Of a DNA stretch of 61,757 bases, positions 7,347 through 60,733 are shown one piece after another (the stretch's first letter is position 1; each line of letters starts with the position of its first letter). The position numbers were made by a program, and so were the translations under genes. The stretch covers positions 1 to 61,757 of IMG/VR virus record IMGVR_UViG_3300032289_001903; one strand, given 5' to 3'. Origin of the DNA: a virus. Below the pieces are notes generated by a model, which saw only the letters and a list, made by a program, of their open reading frames with translations, did not search any database and was not told where the DNA came from.

Positions 7347-7721
7347 ATGGAAAACGAAATAATAGGTCAATTCATATCAACTTTGTTTGCATCACGCACA
7401 CAAGCTCATGTATTCCATCTTCAGACACCATCATTTGCTGCTCATAAAGCATTGAATGATTATTACGATGAAATCGTAGGCATAACTGATGGAATAGCAG
7501 AATCATATCAAGGTAAATATGGTATTATTACTGGATATGGTAATATTGCATTACAAGAATACCAAAGCTGTGAAGCAATAATTATGTTTTTTGAAACGCT
7601 TTGTATGTATGTTGAAAAAAGTAGACAAATGCTTCCACAAGATTCATACCTTCAAAACCAAATTGATGAAATTGTTGCTTTAATTAAATCTACAATATAT
7701 AAATTACGCTTTTTAAAATGA
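7347..7721 (+). CDS. Dps/ferritin-like protein
   Basis: A 124-residue all-helical protein. Residues 21-52 read like the ferroxidase region of Dps: H21, H33, D48 and E52 keep the spacing of E. coli Dps H51, H63, D78 and E82 (+12, +15, +4). The position equivalent to Dps D67 is N37. The segment HVFHLQTPSFAAHKALNDYY parallels the Dps 'HWNV-G-F-LH' block. It is shorter than Dps (about 167 residues) and has no Lys-rich N-tail. It could oxidise iron or shield DNA. It is not tagged, though its neighbours are; it overlaps the next gene at ATGA. Confidence 0.6.
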   Translation: MENEIIGQFISTLFASRTQAHVFHLQTPSFAAHKALNDYYDEIVGITDGIAESYQGKYGIITGYGNIALQEYQSCEAIIMFFETLCMYVEKSRQMLPQDSYLQNQIDEIVALIKSTIYKLRFLK

Positions 7722-8587
7722 TAAAATTACTTGATATATTAAACGAAGGTCCACAAATTGGTAAACGTCCTGTAAGAACATATAAACTTGTTCAAGGAAA
7801 AGAAGCTGAATTAGATAAAATAAAAAATTCTAAAGTAGTAGATTATATTAAAAAGAATCCTGAAAATATAAATATAGAAGATTTAGCTAAATTTCTTTCT
7901 GTACGAGAGCAAGTTGCTTTACAATTTATAAATGCCCTAAAACAAGTAGGAGCTTTAGTATCAAAAGATGGTACTACTAGTAAACCTATGAGTAGTGATG
8001 ATGTTGATGATTTATTTAAAGAAGCTACATTCACTAGTAAGTATGATGATAGTCCTAAATTAAAAGGTAAACAAACTAAATTACCTGATGAATTACAAGC
8101 TAAACTTGTTAAAGAAGGTGATGATCACGAAGTGGCAATGGCACAAGCTAGTTTAAAATCAATTATTAAATCAGCTGCTCAACTAATGAATAAATTAGGA
8201 ATGATGGAGCGTGATATACCAGGTTGGATTCAAGACCATATTACAAATGCTGAAAACTATATTGACCAAGCTGCTCAAGGTTTTCATGAATTAAATCATA
8301 ATGAAATGAATGAACAATTAAAAAGATTACAAGAATTAGCTAATGTTAAAGAAGCATTTTCTAATAAAGATGAGAGTGTATATCAAGATTTTATAAAACT
8401 TGATGGGGAATCAAAACTTAAATTCTTTGGTAAAATTAGAGATTGGTATAAGACAGCGAGTGACCCTGCAGTTAAAGCAGGATTACCAAAACAAAAAATA
8501 GTAGGGGCTATTAATAGCTTTATGGACGAGTATGGTTCTTATGTTAAAAAAGGAGAAGATGAAGGAGATAAATATGATTTCTCGTAA
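7718..8587 (+). CDS. Tagged winged-helix internal virion protein
   Basis: Tag MIKLLDILNE, then at about 38-85 a helix-turn-helix-like region (NINIEDLAKFLSVREQV, LKQVGALVSKDG) that looks like a winged helix. Residues about 135-195 contain DHEVAMAQASLKSIIKSA and IPGWIQDHITNAENYI, a helical block I recall from many T4-like phage structural proteins. The C-terminus is charged. It is probably a head protein that contacts DNA. Domain assignment is by pattern only. Confidence 0.65.
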   Translation: MIKLLDILNEGPQIGKRPVRTYKLVQGKEAELDKIKNSKVVDYIKKNPENINIEDLAKFLSVREQVALQFINALKQVGALVSKDGTTSKPMSSDDVDDLFKEATFTSKYDDSPKLKGKQTKLPDELQAKLVKEGDDHEVAMAQASLKSIIKSAAQLMNKLGMMERDIPGWIQDHITNAENYIDQAAQGFHELNHNEMNEQLKRLQELANVKEAFSNKDESVYQDFIKLDGESKLKFFGKIRDWYKTASDPAVKAGLPKQKIVGAINSFMDEYGSYVKKGEDEGDKYDFS

Positions 8588-8850: not shown

Positions 8851-9408
8851 ATGAATAAACAATTAATATTAGAAAAATACATTAAGGTAGCTGTTAAAAA
8901 AGCTCTTAAAGAGCAAGAAGAACAACAGCGAAAAGCAGAGAAGGCGATGTACATGGTATATCGCTTTCCTGGGCTAAAAAAGTTAATGGAAGAATTGATG
9001 TCTCCAGCTTTTGGCCGTTACGTTAATGGTATTAACATTATTGCTCCAAAACCAACAACATTTAAAGTTGATTTGATTAATGGACAAGATTTTAGTATTA
9101 AATACATTGGTAGAGGTAATTTTAATGTTAAGATAGCAGGTAAAAAGTATGATCCACTTAATTTAGGTGAATTAGAAAGAGCTTCACAAGGAATAGCTGA
9201 TTTATTAGAATTAAACTATGCACCTAAAGAAGGTGCTGAAAGTATACCATCAGGAGGAGCAGAAACTCCACCATCTGAATCTCCAGCAGCATCAGGAGCT
9301 GAATTAGGTCCTGAATTAGCAGCAGCTGGTCCTGAAACTACAGCACCTGCAGCAGGAGCTGAAACTACCCCACCAGCAGAAGAAGAAACCCCACCAGCAG
9401 AAGCATAA
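8851..9408 (+). CDS. Tagged protein with Pro/Ala/Glu-rich tail
   Basis: It starts with the helical tag MNKQLILEKYIKVAVKKALKE (LKE at 19-21). Residues about 30-128 form a small alpha/beta domain (FPGLKKLMEELMSPAFGRYV, FKVDLINGQDFSIKYIGRG). From about 130 to 185 the chain is a low-complexity Pro-Ala-Glu tail (repeated PPAEE, AAGAE) that is likely disordered. The domain is not recognised. It lies just upstream of the nuclease-like gene. Confidence 0.6.
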   Translation: MNKQLILEKYIKVAVKKALKEQEEQQRKAEKAMYMVYRFPGLKKLMEELMSPAFGRYVNGINIIAPKPTTFKVDLINGQDFSIKYIGRGNFNVKIAGKKYDPLNLGELERASQGIADLLELNYAPKEGAESIPSGGAETPPSESPAASGAELGPELAAAGPETTAPAAGAETTPPAEEETPPAEA

Positions 9409-9409
9409 T

Positions 9410-10396
9410 ATGAATGTTATAGATAAAATATTACTAGAGTGGTCATACCGTTGCCACGATGGAATCGTTGATATGAACGATCCTAAAAAGAAAGCTATAT
9501 TAGATCAAATATTAAAAGAAAATAATATAGAAGAAATAGAATTACTTAATGAGAATGATGAAACTTATGATAAAGTAATTAAAAATGCTTTAAAAGTAGA
9601 AGATATTCCTCGAGTACAAGGTCAATATAATTTAGGAACAGATACTAATATTAATGGAGAAGACGCAGAAATATTTAAAAAATTATACCCAGTAGCTCCT
9701 CCTAAAAAAGGTAAAGAAATAGACTCAGCTGGATCTAAAGGTACAGGTAATGGAGAAATAGCTATGTATTGGTTATTTGCTCATCAAGAAGGACATACAG
9801 CTCAAGGTACACAAGGTGGTGGTAAGCCGGATTTAGAAATAGATGGTAAAGGTGTTGAAGTAAAAGCATATGACTCTAATCGTATAACATTGGGTAGATT
9901 TGGATCAGATAAAGCTAATATTGATTTATTAAACACTTTATTTGGACTAGATACTTTAGTATCCAGTATAGAAAAAACTGGAGATAAAGATAAACGAGCT
10001 AGTTCTTTAAATTTTTCAAAATCAGATATAGTTCGTGCTTTTAATACTTTAGTTGATTTCAGCGATAATGAAGAACTTAGAGGATTAGCATCAAAATATC
10101 CTTTAATTGGAAATATATATTCTAAAATAGATGCTCTTAATCAACAAATAGGATTAAAAAAGGGGTCTTCATCTGAAGAATATGCTGGTGCTTTGGTAAA
10201 ACGTATGTTATTAAGAAAATTTGGAGAAAAACCAGGGTTTGGTGGTTACATTGTTAATGTAAGTGAAAATGGAAATTTGAAATATATTCAAATAACCGAA
10301 GAAAAGATTAAAAATATAAGTAATGAAGATATACTAGAAAATACCTTCATAAATCAAGGATCAATTATAATCAACCCAGAAGGATTATTAAAATAG
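9410..10396 (+). CDS. Tagged PD-(D/E)xK nuclease-like protein
   Basis: A 328-residue protein with tag MNVIDKILLE (cleavage after E10). A PD-(D/E)xK core is visible: E116 in GNGEIAMYWLF, P140-D141 in GGGKPDLEIDGKG, then E150-V-K152 in GVEVKAY. The spacing PD-x8-ExK fits the restriction-endonuclease-like fold. A second LNE lies at 46-48. Residues 160-300 are helical with no further motif. With the tag, the simplest reading is a nuclease packed in the capsid and possibly injected to attack host or competitor DNA; genome processing in the head is an alternative. Activity is inferred. Confidence 0.7.
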   Translation: MNVIDKILLEWSYRCHDGIVDMNDPKKKAILDQILKENNIEEIELLNENDETYDKVIKNALKVEDIPRVQGQYNLGTDTNINGEDAEIFKKLYPVAPPKKGKEIDSAGSKGTGNGEIAMYWLFAHQEGHTAQGTQGGGKPDLEIDGKGVEVKAYDSNRITLGRFGSDKANIDLLNTLFGLDTLVSSIEKTGDKDKRASSLNFSKSDIVRAFNTLVDFSDNEELRGLASKYPLIGNIYSKIDALNQQIGLKKGSSSEEYAGALVKRMLLRKFGEKPGFGGYIVNVSENGNLKYIQITEEKIKNISNEDILENTFINQGSIIINPEGLLK

Positions 10397-10402
10397 TTAT
10401 TT

Positions 10403-10678
10403 ATGAGACAAATGCAAAATAATTTTAGACGATCAATAGCAATTAATCAAGCTTTAGAAGCAGCAAAACAGCCATCATCTAAAATAATAAAAACAAAAAC
10501 AACAATAGAACCTCCTGTAGCTGAACAACCACAACCAATAGTTGAATCAAAACCAGAACCTATTGTTGAACAACCTAAAGTTGAACAACAACCAACTATT
10601 GAACAACAACCTAAGGTTGAAGAATTTAAACCAAAACAACAACAACAACAAAACAGATTACCTAATTTAGGTAAATAA
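10403..10678 (+). CDS. Low-complexity Pro/Gln/Glu repeat protein
   Basis: A 91-residue protein whose second half repeats EQQP, VEQPK and TIEQQPKVE units and ends in QQQQQNRLPNLGK. It is likely disordered; it may be a linker or surface protein. The start is uncertain: the ATG at 10403 overlaps a TTATTTAT sequence, and the ATG at 10412 (MQNNFRRS) is equally plausible. A terminator-like hairpin follows. Confidence 0.5.
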   Translation: MRQMQNNFRRSIAINQALEAAKQPSSKIIKTKTTIEPPVAEQPQPIVESKPEPIVEQPKVEQQPTIEQQPKVEEFKPKQQQQQNRLPNLGK

Positions 10679-16680: not shown

Positions 16681-17211
16681 ATGGGTATGTCAACTAAAAT
16701 ATATTTAGTAGAAAATATAGAACCTGGTACTAACAAAGTTTATATAGGTAAAACTAAAAATAACGATAGGTACTATGGTCATCAATCTAAATATGGTTTA
16801 CAAATACAATATACTATAATAGATGAAATTAATTCATTAAATCATAGTGATTGGGAACCATTAGAAACATATTGGATTGAACAATTTAAACAATGGGGAT
16901 TTGAGGTAATAAATAAACGCAAAAAAGGTGGAAGTGGTCCAATATCTCATACTACTGAAACAAAACAAAAAATACGCAAAGGTAAAATAGGTCATGAGTG
17001 TTACTCTAATATAGAAAGAGGTAATAAAATTAGTAAAGCTTTACAAAATCATTCAAAACATTACACTGAAGAAATAATTCAAAAGATGAAAAAACCAAAA
17101 CCTAAAGATTTTGGTGAAAGAATAAGTAAAGCTTTAAAAGGTAGATCACGTCCTGATATAAAAGGTAGAGTAAGCCCTAATAAAGGTAAAACAAAGAAAA
17201 ATGAACAATAA
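16681..17211 (+). CDS. GIY-YIG homing endonuclease
   Basis: A 176-residue protein. The N-terminal GIY-YIG domain is visible as IYLVEN ... VYIGKTKN, with a candidate catalytic Glu in LETYWIEQF. The C-terminal half carries NUMOD3-like DNA-binding repeats (TETKQKIRKGKIGH, ERISKALKGRS, SPNKGKTKK). It is a freestanding homing endonuclease inserted directly before the terminase gene, with an 11-base overlap. Such genes spread by cutting homologous phage DNA nearby. The second ATG (16687) may be the start. Confidence 0.85.
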   Translation: MGMSTKIYLVENIEPGTNKVYIGKTKNNDRYYGHQSKYGLQIQYTIIDEINSLNHSDWEPLETYWIEQFKQWGFEVINKRKKGGSGPISHTTETKQKIRKGKIGHECYSNIERGNKISKALQNHSKHYTEEIIQKMKKPKPKDFGERISKALKGRSRPDIKGRVSPNKGKTKKNEQ

Positions 17212-18796
17212 CAATAATCAACAGATAAAGGATATAATAAAGCAAGAATATATAAAATGCTTTCAAGATCCAATCCATTTTTTCCGCAAATATTGTTACA
17301 TCACTCACCCGGTTAAAGGTAGAGTATTATTCCATTTATACCCATTCCAAGAAGACACATTAAGAGAATTTAGAGCAAATCGTTTTTCTATTGTAAATAA
17401 ATCACGTCAGTTAGGTATCTCTACTCTAGTAGCAGGATACGCTTTATGGACAATGATATTTAATAAAGATAAAACAGTACTTTGTATAGCAACAAAACAA
17501 GAAACCGCTAAAGGTATGGTTGAAAAAGTACAATTCATGTATAATAATTTACCAGCTTGGTTACGCGGTAATCAAAAACCAATATCAGATAATAAGTTAT
17601 CACTCAAACTAGCAAATAACTCTCAAATTGTAGCAACATCAGCTGCATCAGATGCAGGTAGATCTTACGCCGTATCTTTATTATTAATAGATGAGGCTGC
17701 GTTTATTGAAGGTATTGATAAAATATATACAAGTATTAAACCAACAATTGCTACGGGTGGAGGAATTATAGCACTATCATCTCCAAATGGTATTGGTAAC
17801 TGGTTCCATAAAATGTATACTGAAGCTCAAATTGGTAAAAATGACTTTAAAGCAATAGAGTTAAAATGGAATTTACATCCTGATAGAGTAGCACCAATAG
17901 ATGCAGGGTGGGAAGATCGTGAACGTGCAAATATGTCACCACGTGAATTTGCTCAAGAATATGATTGTGACTTTTTAGGATCAGGTAATTCAGTAATTGA
18001 ACCAGATAATTTATCATTTTATGAACAAACATATATACAAGAGCCTGTTGAACGTCGGTTCATGGGCGGCGATTTTTGGATTTGGAATTATCCTGATTAT
18101 AGCCGTAACTATATCATCAGTGCTGACGTTGCTCGTGGAGACGGTTCGGATTACTCAGCGTTTCATGTTATCGATGTCGAATCGTGTGAGCAAGTTGCTG
18201 AATATAAATCTCAGATAGGAACAAGGGAATTTGGTCATATGTTAGTATCTGTTGCAACTGAGTATAACAACGCTTTATTAGTCCCTGAAAACGCTAATAT
18301 CGGTTGGGATGTTATTAATACCATCATCGAGAAAGGTTATCAAAATTTATATTATTCTCCACGCGCTTATGGCGAAATGAATATTGATAAATGGATGGCT
18401 AAGATGGACAGTGAACAAACAGTACCCGGATTTACAAACTCTCAAAAAACAAGACCACTTGTTATCTCAAAAATGGAGTCGTATATTAGAGATAGACATT
18501 TTATCTTTCGCTCTAAGCGCTTACTAGAGGAATTACGTGTATTCATTTGGAATCATGGTAAAGCACAAGCACAAAACGGATATAATGATGATTTGGTAAT
18601 GGCTTTAGGAATTGGATTATTTACTAGAGATACTGGTGTTAAATTTCACCAACAAGGTATGGATATAACTAGAAAATCTATTGATAATATATCTAGTACA
18701 TCTCAAGGTTATACACCAAGGATGCTAAATGGTATACCAAATCCATACCAAATAGATACTCCATATGGTACTGAAGATATTACATGGATACTATAA
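17201..18796 (+). CDS. 17: Terminase large subunit (gp17-like)
   Basis: A 531-residue ATPase-nuclease that pumps DNA into the prohead. The Walker A is the deviant form KSRQLGIST (67-75), with the lysine at the start, where T4 has SRQLGKTT. The Walker B is LLIDEAAF (161-168). The C-terminal RNase-H-type nuclease shows ISADVARGDGSDYSAF (D309), VPENANIGWD and the late acidic site GYNDDLVMAL. It is slightly shorter than T4 gp17 (610). A patch at about 18040-18190, over the first nuclease motif, is GC-richer than the rest. The upstream neighbour is a homing endonuclease; portal follows. Confidence 0.95.
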   Translation: MNNNNNQQIKDIIKQEYIKCFQDPIHFFRKYCYITHPVKGRVLFHLYPFQEDTLREFRANRFSIVNKSRQLGISTLVAGYALWTMIFNKDKTVLCIATKQETAKGMVEKVQFMYNNLPAWLRGNQKPISDNKLSLKLANNSQIVATSAASDAGRSYAVSLLLIDEAAFIEGIDKIYTSIKPTIATGGGIIALSSPNGIGNWFHKMYTEAQIGKNDFKAIELKWNLHPDRVAPIDAGWEDRERANMSPREFAQEYDCDFLGSGNSVIEPDNLSFYEQTYIQEPVERRFMGGDFWIWNYPDYSRNYIISADVARGDGSDYSAFHVIDVESCEQVAEYKSQIGTREFGHMLVSVATEYNNALLVPENANIGWDVINTIIEKGYQNLYYSPRAYGEMNIDKWMAKMDSEQTVPGFTNSQKTRPLVISKMESYIRDRHFIFRSKRLLEELRVFIWNHGKAQAQNGYNDDLVMALGIGLFTRDTGVKFHQQGMDITRKSIDNISSTSQGYTPRMLNGIPNPYQIDTPYGTEDITWIL

Positions 18797-18828: not shown

Positions 18829-20718
18829 ATGGCTGAACAAAATACAGGATTATTTACTCGATTAAAACGTTTATTTAGTACTGATGTAGTAATCAGAAAT
18901 ATAGGCGGTGATCAACTAAGAACAATAGACGTTGATAGAATACAAGCATATGGTAATGTAAAAACCAATGCTCTTATAGATAGATTCACTAAGTTACACA
19001 GATATGGCGCTAATATGCCATATAACCCAACGATGAATTATCAAACACTTCGTATTCAGTTATATACTGACTATGAAGCAATGGATACTGAATCAATCAT
19101 CGCTTCTGCACTTGATATCATTGCTGATGAATCTACACTTAAAAATGAAACACAAGAAGTAATACAAATTAGATCAGCAGACGAAAATATTCAACGTATA
19201 CTTTATAATTTATTTTATGATGTATTAAATATAGAATTTAATCTATGGTTATGGATTAGAAATATGTGTAAGTATGGTGATTTCTATTTACATCTAGAAA
19301 TAGCTGAAAAATTTGGTGTATATAATGTAACACCATTGTCAGTTTATGATATGGTTCGTGAAGAAGGTATGGATCCTCAAAATCCATCTTACGTTTGTTT
19401 TAAAATTGATCCAATGGTTATTGCAGCTGGTGGTATCAACTCACGTGTTAAAGATAGAGATGGTAAGATTAAATTTGAAAACTACGAAATAGCTCACTTT
19501 AGGTTATTAACTGATGCTAACTACCTTCCTTATGGTAGATCATATATAGAACCAGCTCGTAAAACATACAAACAGTATGTGTTGATGAAGGATGCAATGT
19601 TGCTCCATCGTATAACTCGTGCCCCGGAAAAACGTGTGTTTTATGTTGATATTGGAAACATGCCACCAAATGAGGTTGATGGGTACATGGAACGTTTAAA
19701 GCAAAAAATGCAAAAAACTCCATATATTGATAAACATACAGGTGAATACAATTTGAAGTATAATATGATGAACGTGATGGAAGATTTTTATATTCCTCAA
19801 CGTGGTGCATCATCAAATACTAAAATTGATACAATCAAAGGATTAGAATATAATGCAATTGATGACGTAAACTTCTTACGTGATGAAATGTTAGCTGCAC
19901 TTAAAGTACCTAAAGCATTCTTTGGCTTTGAAAAAGATTTGACTGGTAAAGCTACATTAGCTGCTGAAGATATTCGTTTCGCTCGTACAGTAGAACGTAT
20001 CCAACGTATTGCATTATCTGAATTGTATAAAATTGCATTAGTACATTTATACACACAAGGATTTGATGGTGCTTCATTAGCTAATTTTGAATTATCATTA
20101 ACTGTTCCATCTATAATCTATGAACAAGAAAAGATAGCATTATGGAAGGAAAAAATTTCATTAGCTAAAGATATGCAAGATACTAAATTAATATCTTCCG
20201 ATTGGATTTATGATAATATATTCCAATTTAGTGAAGATCAATATGATGATATAAGAGATTTAGTAACTGAAGATATGAAACGTACTTTCCGCTTATCACA
20301 AATTGAAAATGAAGGTAATGACCCAGCTAAATCAGGTAAATCATACGGTACACCACATGATCTAGCATCATTATATGGTAAAGGCAGAGCAGGTATGAAT
20401 GTAGATGGACCTATCCCTCCAGGGTATAATGAAAAACGCTCAGTTGGTCGTCCTGAAGAAAAAGCATCTATAGTTGGTACACAAAAAGACCCATTAGGTA
20501 AAGATAGATTAGGTAGTAAAGAAAATGGCACATTATATACCGCAAATATTCCTGATGAAGGAAGTGGTACACCAAAAAGCTATGGTGCTTTAGCATTAGC
20601 TGAATCACTACGCTTTAAAGATATGTTAAAATCTATACCAAGAGAAGGCAAACAAATGGTGTTTGAAACAGAACAGGAATCTTCATTATTAGATGAAAAA
20701 AATATTAAGGACATATAA
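18829..20718 (+). CDS. 20: Portal vertex protein (gp20-like)
   Basis: A 629-residue portal forming the DNA entry ring. Typical T4-type portal blocks are present: YGNVKTNALIDRFTKLHRY, YEAMDTESIIASALDIIADE, MCKYGDFYLHLEI and FFGFEKDLTGKATLAAEDI. It is longer than T4 gp20 (524), mostly through a charged Gly/Lys-rich C-terminal extension after about residue 490. It lies directly downstream of terminase, the conserved order of head genes. Confidence 0.93.
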   Translation: MAEQNTGLFTRLKRLFSTDVVIRNIGGDQLRTIDVDRIQAYGNVKTNALIDRFTKLHRYGANMPYNPTMNYQTLRIQLYTDYEAMDTESIIASALDIIADESTLKNETQEVIQIRSADENIQRILYNLFYDVLNIEFNLWLWIRNMCKYGDFYLHLEIAEKFGVYNVTPLSVYDMVREEGMDPQNPSYVCFKIDPMVIAAGGINSRVKDRDGKIKFENYEIAHFRLLTDANYLPYGRSYIEPARKTYKQYVLMKDAMLLHRITRAPEKRVFYVDIGNMPPNEVDGYMERLKQKMQKTPYIDKHTGEYNLKYNMMNVMEDFYIPQRGASSNTKIDTIKGLEYNAIDDVNFLRDEMLAALKVPKAFFGFEKDLTGKATLAAEDIRFARTVERIQRIALSELYKIALVHLYTQGFDGASLANFELSLTVPSIIYEQEKIALWKEKISLAKDMQDTKLISSDWIYDNIFQFSEDQYDDIRDLVTEDMKRTFRLSQIENEGNDPAKSGKSYGTPHDLASLYGKGRAGMNVDGPIPPGYNEKRSVGRPEEKASIVGTQKDPLGKDRLGSKENGTLYTANIPDEGSGTPKSYGALALAESLRFKDMLKSIPREGKQMVFETEQESSLLDEKNIKDI

Positions 20719-24421: not shown

Positions 24422-25045
24422 ATGAAACAACTTTTAATAGATCATATCCCCTTTAAAGTAGCCAAACTAACACTTAACGAAAGTAAGTCATCTAGCGGTC
24501 GTATGGTACTAGAAGGTAAACTACAAGCAGCTGACACCAAAAATGGTAACGGCCGTGTTTACCCTAAAGATATATTAAATAGAGAAATCGAAAAATATAT
24601 TAAAGGACCAGTAGCAAACAACAATGCTATGGGAGAATTAGATCATCCAGAAGCATCTATCATCAATTTAGCAAACGTATCACACAATATCACTAAAGTA
24701 TGGTGGGAAGGTGATGATGTAATGGGTAGATTAACACTACTTAATACACCATCAGGTAAAATTGCAATGGAATTAGTAAGCGCTGGAATACCATTAGGTA
24801 TATCATCACGCGGTATGGGTTCTGTTAAGCAATTAGGTGAAACAGTTGAAGTACAAGACGATTTTGAGTTGCTCTGCTGGGACCTTGTAAGTGTACCTTC
24901 AACTCCCGAGGCATATATGCACCCTGTAGGTAAATTAGGTGCTATGAACGAGAGCAAACAATATAAAACTAAAGACTACAGCAAGGTAAACTCACTCATT
25001 ACAGAAATAATATGCAGTCAGATGGGTGTCTGTCCACTATGCTAA
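24422..25045 (+). CDS. 21: Prohead maturation protease (gp21-like)
   Basis: A 207-residue serine protease of the T4 gp21/herpesvirus-assemblin type; T4 gp21 is of similar length. The catalytic His is in GELDHPE (H75) and the Ser in ISSRGMGS (S128/S129), followed by DFELLCWDLVSVPSTPEA, typical of the family. Possible self-cleavage sites are LNE (18-20) and ITE near residue 195. It should remove scaffold and trim capsid protein and the tagged internal proteins, cutting after (L/I)-x-E. It lies in the conserved 20-21-22-23 order. Confidence 0.9.
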   Translation: MKQLLIDHIPFKVAKLTLNESKSSSGRMVLEGKLQAADTKNGNGRVYPKDILNREIEKYIKGPVANNNAMGELDHPEASIINLANVSHNITKVWWEGDDVMGRLTLLNTPSGKIAMELVSAGIPLGISSRGMGSVKQLGETVEVQDDFELLCWDLVSVPSTPEAYMHPVGKLGAMNESKQYKTKDYSKVNSLITEIICSQMGVCPLC

Positions 25046-60220: not shown

Positions 60221-60733
60221 ATGAAACAACAAATTAACGAAATTAGAAGAATGCAGCAATTAGCTGGATTGATTATTGAAGCATTTAACTCATTTTTAGA
60301 TACTAATATGGGAGGATGGATAAGAGAATATATAGATGATGTAGTTGAAGATAATATGGGCGAACCAGAGTCATTAAATTTAGAATATCGTTCTGATTTT
60401 GATATAGCTTTCAATTTAGCACTTTCTAAACTTTCCCAAGAACAATTCCCACTATATATATCAGATGATTCTAAATTAGCTTCTGGGTTTATTAAACCTA
60501 AAGGGATTGGGTTTATAATGAATAGCAATGGAGAAACAACAGTAACACCAGAAATAGTTCAGATATTTAATGATAACTATGGTATAATTGATATTAATTA
60601 TATTAAAGATTTCTTTACAAATGCAAGTAATTGGAAAATGATTACTGATGAAAATGATATATCTAATTATAAAAAATTATATTTAATTGATACTGAAAGT
60701 AATCAAATAGGTAATAAAGAAAATTTCTTTTAG
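60221..60733 (+). CDS. Tagged protein among replication genes
   Basis: A 170-residue protein. The tag is MKQQINEIRRMQQLAGLIIE, a near-copy of the tag of the gene at 16236 although they lie 44 kb apart. The mature part is acidic: MGGWIREYIDDVVEDNMGEP, then a mixed alpha/beta region. It is unrecognised. Despite its location, it has its own ATATTTAT box, so I predict late expression and head packaging. Confidence 0.6.
   Translation: MKQQINEIRRMQQLAGLIIEAFNSFLDTNMGGWIREYIDDVVEDNMGEPESLNLEYRSDFDIAFNLALSKLSQEQFPLYISDDSKLASGFIKPKGIGFIMNSNGETTVTPEIVQIFNDNYGIIDINYIKDFFTNASNWKMITDENDISNYKKLYLIDTESNQIGNKENFF

Follow-up and report, generated by a model that had tools for sequence, protein, structure and literature searches.

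Organization of the locus

The window analysed here, a stretch of viral DNA of 61,757 nucleotides, carries a gene whose product we describe as a predicted PD-(D/E)xK nuclease (Table 1). A head-targeted enzyme of this class had been proposed in the first-pass annotation, and the open reading frame, the N-terminal tag, E116, P140-D141 and E150-V-K152 could all be confirmed in place. The gene occupies a fixed slot. In nearly all loci compared, it lies directly 3' of the homologue of the same upstream gene, whatever type of C-terminal part it encodes, and the genes downstream of the slot are likewise constant. The conserved N-terminal module of the nuclease (N-module) was found exactly once per genome in all 20 records with sizes up to 183 kb.

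Table 1. Features of the nuclease locus and of related head genes in the window
Feature	Position	Strand	Basis
Predicted PD-(D/E)xK nuclease gene, head-targeted type, C-terminal type A, 328 aa	9410..10396	+	ORF, alignment of relatives
Candidate capsid-targeting tag MNVIDKILLE; its L-L-E may serve as prohead-protease site	9410..9439	+	L/I-X-E motif (PMC9026906)
Conserved N-module, tag plus WSYRCHDGIVDMNDPKKKAILDQIL.., residues 1-42, common to all C-terminal types	9410..9535	+	Alignment, DNA identity ends at 9532/9535
Exchanged block: C-terminal part of the nuclease and most of ORF 10403-10678	9536..10673	+	DNA comparison
Predicted PD-(D/E)xK core, residues 113-187	9746..9970	+	AlphaFold2 model
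E116 codon, invariant	9755..9757	+	Alignment of relatives
D141 codon, invariant	9830..9832	+	Alignment of relatives
E150-V151-K152 codons; E150 and K152 invariant	9857..9865	+	Alignment of relatives
Gene directly upstream of the slot; acidic Ala/Pro/Glu-rich tail	8851..9408	+	Locus comparison
Pro/Gln-rich ORF of 91 aa, mostly within the exchanged block	10403..10678	+	ORF list, DNA comparison
Prohead core protein serine protease, Peptidase_S77, T4 gp21 family	24422..25045	+	Pfam PF03420, E=6.5e-33
Terminase large subunit	17201..18796	+	Best match of the gene so annotated in phage immuto
Portal protein, gp20 type	18829..20718	+	Best match of the gene so annotated in phage immuto

The upstream gene corresponds in phage immuto to the C-terminal end of a larger protein. 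There, the products of window positions 7718-8587 and 8851-9408 appear to be joined as one protein of 841 aa (L008, 12476-15001) with possible internal protease sites. The small Pro/Gln-rich product encoded behind the nuclease is similar to N-terminal extensions that relatives have on the next (FAD-type) gene. Another ORF of the window (16681-17211) has a GIY-YIG-like start and, judging from the differing places of its relatives in related loci, is probably mobile.

Catalytic motif and predicted fold

In the alignment of 22 type A sequences, E116, D141, E150 and K152 are invariant. P140 is replaced by Ala in several relatives and hence is not among the invariant residues, so that of the E-PD-ExK signature expected to be kept in relatives the four catalytic residues stood and the proline did not. 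Only 26 of 286 columns were conserved at 95% or more, and these contained exactly one E..D..(E/S/Q)xK pattern. Among 26 neighbour gene families aligned in the same way as a control, the pattern occurred in only three, all of which are strongly conserved (77-258 invariant columns) and one of which is the terminase. It was found in none of the control families with 51 or fewer invariant columns.

An AlphaFold model derived from the single sequence was of no use (pLDDT 40). The AlphaFold2 model built from an alignment of 18 sequences reached a pLDDT of 83.8 and a pTM of 0.73. It predicts a helix (116-124), four strands (131-133, 142-144, 147-152 and 159-163) and a second helix (168-187), which fits the element order expected for the PD-(D/E)xK core (alpha-beta-beta-beta-alpha-beta in the superfamily), with E116, D141 and E150/K152 placed in the expected elements. 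The placement of these residues corresponds to the signature of the superfamily, an acidic residue on the first core helix followed by a beta hairpin that bears D and (E/Q/D/S)xK. Foldseek comparison of the model to solved structures in the PDB resulted in nothing significant, and in BFVD the only match, a weak one, was to a phage protein that is itself uncharacterised. Thus, the restriction-endonuclease-like fold called for by the first-pass annotation agrees with the model in its element order and is to be regarded as predicted rather than confirmed. Nevertheless, the invariant catalytic residues, the predicted core and the presence of a motif of their own in nearly all other types found in the slot together make the assignment as a PD-(D/E)xK nuclease well supported.

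Sequence searches of the PDB gave no match, and Pfam, NCBIfam and PHROGs provided no name for the window protein; the one weak match, to phrog_734 (E 0.048), was restricted to the N-module. Relatives were found in viral contigs. Type A relatives were detected neither in bacterial genome contigs nor in plasmids, and type E relatives were not detected in plasmids.

C-terminal types behind the conserved module

About 11 C-terminal types follow the N-module, namely A (window), B, C (immuto gp078), D, E, F, G, I, J, K and L, the labels being BLAST clusters refined by eye. Nearly all of them carry their own E..D..(E/S/Q)xK motif. In each of the types A, C and D (22, 21 and 13 members) one E..D..(E/S)xK pattern stands among few invariant columns; in type C, for example, only 10 of 320 columns were conserved at 95% or more (21 sequences), and these include G.GE, GD and E.K. 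The smaller types also keep the motif, which is less telling given their few sequences. Seven types (A, B, C, I, J, K and L) place the K exactly 11 residues after the D. Type E keeps E, D and K but is variable (S, Q) two positions ahead of the Lys; it matches a PADLOC model for type II restriction enzymes (1.6e-10).

Profile comparisons aligned the motif residues E, D and ExK in register for A/C, B/C and C/L, and D/E were also in register, whereas most other pairs of types showed no detectable relation. There may be two sets of remotely related types, one made up of A, B and C and perhaps also L and J, the other of D, E and G, so that the eleven types should not be equated with eleven independent origins. 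Two slot occupants (L078 and L087) are without the motif. In L078 (10001-10948) a non-nuclease domain with the sequence HFxxRxxERGNVLDI... replaces the nuclease; L057 (1287-3107) has the same domain as well, there following a type C nuclease in one fusion protein.

Exchange of the C-terminal domain between relatives

The first-pass annotation was silent on what we consider the main feature of the locus, a fixed N-module with exchanged C-terminal domains. Close relatives share 90-97% DNA identity up to about codon 27-42 of the nuclease gene, then show no similarity, and regain DNA identity at the stop codon. For L053 (type J) and L071 (type D), identity of 97% extends to position +101 of the gene and returns 1-4 bp past the stop codon. 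L068 (B) and L081 (D) share 92% identity over 3.9 kb up to +126, and similarity returns 4-10 bp before the end of the stop codon with 86.5% over 6.5 kb. L067 (E) and L070 (J) are 90% identical up to +82 and again from the stop codon, there with 87.7% over 9.2 kb. Further pairs of close phages with different types show a like pattern. When the window is compared with L041 (B) and L046 (D), the closest relatives that carry another type, an identity of 87% ends at 9532-9535 and resumes at 10674-10676, from which the limits of the exchanged block in Table 1 were derived.

On a quick tree of 84 rows constructed from the upstream gene and the N-module, at least 41 changes of type were counted, an approximate number, as compared to a minimum possible of 10. 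Such clean replacement suggests a fast-evolving weapon that is delivered with the viral DNA.

Context of the proposed head targeting

The T4 prohead protease cuts after L/I-X-E (PMC9026906). The window shows two sequence features of T4 internal head proteins, an N-terminal sequence of about 10 residues ending in L/I-x-E and a gp21-type protease, and the S77 prohead protease was found in all 16 related genomes. By analogy, we infer a cut after residue 10 of MNVIDKILLE. Tags of this kind are not confined to the nuclease gene. Of the 71 ORFs of the window, 20 have the motif hydrophobic-(L/I/V)-x-E with its first position between residues 4 and 22, whereas internal windows of the same proteins contained it in 4.8 +/- 1.9 cases (maximum 12 in 2000 draws), which represents an approximately fourfold enrichment of such tags at N-termini. 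About 18 ORFs (748-31860 and 60221-60733) share a few tag forms ending in L/I-x-E, recurrent ones being MIKLxDILxE, ELxxLIREMLSE and MQQLAGLIxE. These sequences suggest a large set of head-targeted proteins, most of them unnamed. A DUF5856 protein (7347-7721, E 1.7e-21), which also matches PHROG 858, is encoded inside the tagged gene cluster.

Of the 98 relatives of the nuclease that were compared, 64 have a tag ending in L/I-x-E, 24 one in V-x-E and 10 one in L/I-x-Q. All 10 Gln tags belong to one lineage (FPKGYPD), in which neighbour genes carry L/I-x-E tags. Because of the Gln and V-x-E variants, the tag alone is suggestive but not decisive. Moreover, conservation of the N-module extends to about residue 40, some 30 residues past the supposed cut, and the module is thus more than a removable tag. 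Taken together, the L-x-E tag, the S77 protease and the place of the gene among virion genes lend indirect support to the proposed head targeting, while the Gln at the cut position and the conservation beyond it do not fit a simple tag.

DNA modification and candidate partner genes

Phage immuto is annotated with FolE, QueC, QueD, QueE, QueF and DpdA (L160, 18607-37015, NC_055915.1). A DpdA-like gene was found in all 14 records over 126 kb, two of these matches being weak (about 1e-8), and QueC in most of these records. The Pfam TGT model missed DpdA, which was found with the immuto protein as query. Neither DpdA nor QueC is encoded within the window itself, a fragment of 61.7 kb. A related record of 169 kb (L114) combines 7-deazaguanine genes with a type A nuclease. 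The presence of DpdA and QueC in related genomes implies DNA modified with 7-deazaguanine, a modification that protects phage DNA from restriction enzymes (PMC6884629) and that could serve here as self-protection from the nuclease. As most phages of the group have both, the link between modification and nuclease may also be coincidental.

Two kinds of partner gene were considered and rejected. Methyltransferases of the families PF01555 and PF00145 were not matched in 16 genomes, and the small genes downstream of the nuclease (79-86 aa and 157 aa) recur with different types, which speaks against a type-specific immunity gene. Hence, as far as these two methyltransferase families and the small downstream genes are concerned, there is no sign of a classic restriction-modification pair or of an immunity gene. 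The gene of 79-86 aa (FNPSDKITxDxPLFIRLLEYAREDAKTDMDLHNVAEKAI) is conserved after nucleases of any type and was observed in L041, L043, L044, L049, L053, L056, L061, L071, L075, L076 and L133.

Proposed function and alternative explanations

In our judgement, the gene probably encodes a polymorphic internal-head nuclease of a T4-like phage group, of which the one cultured relative, phage immuto, infects Flavobacterium (sp. LMO8), and this nuclease would be injected and cut unmodified DNA. Guided by its N-module, the nuclease would enter the prohead core and there probably lose its first ten residues to the S77 protease. The processed protein would then be packed with the genome and enter the next cell together with the DNA. 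There it may cut DNA that does not carry the phage's own base modification, i.e. the host chromosome, plasmids or rival phages. The C-terminal catalytic domain would be passed between phages as a unit, with resistance of hosts or rivals selecting for new specificities or for escape from inhibitors and thereby for domain exchange.

An extended version of this explanation, which we offer tentatively, is a restriction-like system that operates without a methyltransferase and is delivered by the virion. DpdA and the Que proteins would mark the phage's own genome with 7-deazaguanine, the heads would carry one out of many interchangeable nucleases destroying unmarked DNA on entry, and an arms race, fought with hosts or with rival phages, would drive the exchange.

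The exchange itself might also be the work of a selfish, homing-type element that cuts the rival allele at the locus in mixed infections, so that repair with the nuclease-bearing genome as template replaces the C-terminal block, with packaging into the head being incidental or absent. The replacement is exactly local and the flanks are conserved, a pattern to be expected of gene conversion at a cut site, and phage nuclease genes are often located at exchange boundaries and swap domains (PMC10448857). However, all 20 genomes have the slot filled once, with no presence-absence pattern, every nuclease forms an in-frame fusion with the same module and nearly all belong to the PD-(D/E)xK type, and neither Pfam nor NCBIfam gave a match to the homing families HNH, GIY-YIG or LAGLIDADG. 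Homing also leaves the tag and the prohead protease unexplained, and we consider it unlikely. A further alternative is an anti-defence or structural internal protein on a nuclease fold, which would bind a host restriction or defence complex in a role like that of T4 IPI and for which catalysis would not be the main job. T-even phages have highly diverse internal proteins in which nothing but the targeting sequence is conserved, and one of them, IPI, acts as an inhibitor of a restriction enzyme (PMC3012670). A role in binding only would not need conserved catalytic residues, yet these are among the best-conserved positions in every type, even in types unrelated in sequence, which makes this explanation similarly doubtful.

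A nuclease for head maturation or packaging, which would act on the phage's DNA within or at the head during its assembly and not be delivered, would be in keeping with the short distance of the gene to the terminase and portal genes in immuto-type genomes. Its repeated replacement by unrelated domains and the two occupants without the motif do not suit an assembly step, and the terminase has a nuclease domain of its own, as established for T4 gp17 (PMC3012670). This function appears highly improbable.

Relation to known systems and implications

An injected head nuclease of the proposed kind would resemble the internal head proteins of T-even phages (IPI, IPII, IPIII and Alt) in its short L/I-x-E N-terminus, the gp21-type protease and the diverse cargo behind a conserved front. 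It differs in that the conserved module comprises about 40 residues and nearly all of the cargo domains are predicted DNA nucleases, whereas T-even cargo includes an inhibitor of a restriction enzyme (IPI) and an ADP-ribosyltransferase (Alt). With a tag of this kind, T4 has been made to take staphylococcal nuclease and EcoRI into its heads and on into cells (PMC3012670, PMC9026906). In these artificial IPIII/CTS fusions the tag likewise targets a nuclease to the head and is cut by the prohead protease (PMC9026906), but they were engineered, whereas the arrangement proposed here is natural and diversified.

Variable C-terminal domains behind a constant N-terminal domain are also a feature of the MuF polymorphic toxins of temperate phages (PMC5576092), which have a conserved head-associated N-terminal domain, variable C-terminal toxins and a proposed delivery with the DNA. 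In contrast to these, a MuF domain (PF04233, PF06152) was absent among the Pfam matches of 74 members, the phages are T4-like and not temperate phages of Firmicutes, the cargo belongs to one motif class, and the slot nuclease is not accompanied by a type-specific immunity gene. Polyvalent proteins (PMC5512222) are comparable as predicted effectors injected with invading DNA, but combine several activities in one large polypeptide instead of a module and one nuclease domain. Homing endonucleases and HEG islands of phages (PMC10448857) share the location of a nuclease at a boundary of genetic exchange and the swapping of domains; here, however, the slot is fixed and always occupied, the module is fused in frame and the nuclease class is another one. 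In the open literature, to which most subscription journals do not belong, we found no report of such a nuclease in phage heads.

The slot represents a ready collection of about 11 nuclease types, most of them without a Pfam match. If the proposed function is correct, these T4-like phages would possess a natural nuclease-loaded head that has been diversified like a polymorphic toxin, although without immunity genes. This would raise the testable questions of how a nuclease shares the head with DNA and leaves this DNA undestroyed, and whether a global base modification provides self-recognition for an injected phage weapon.
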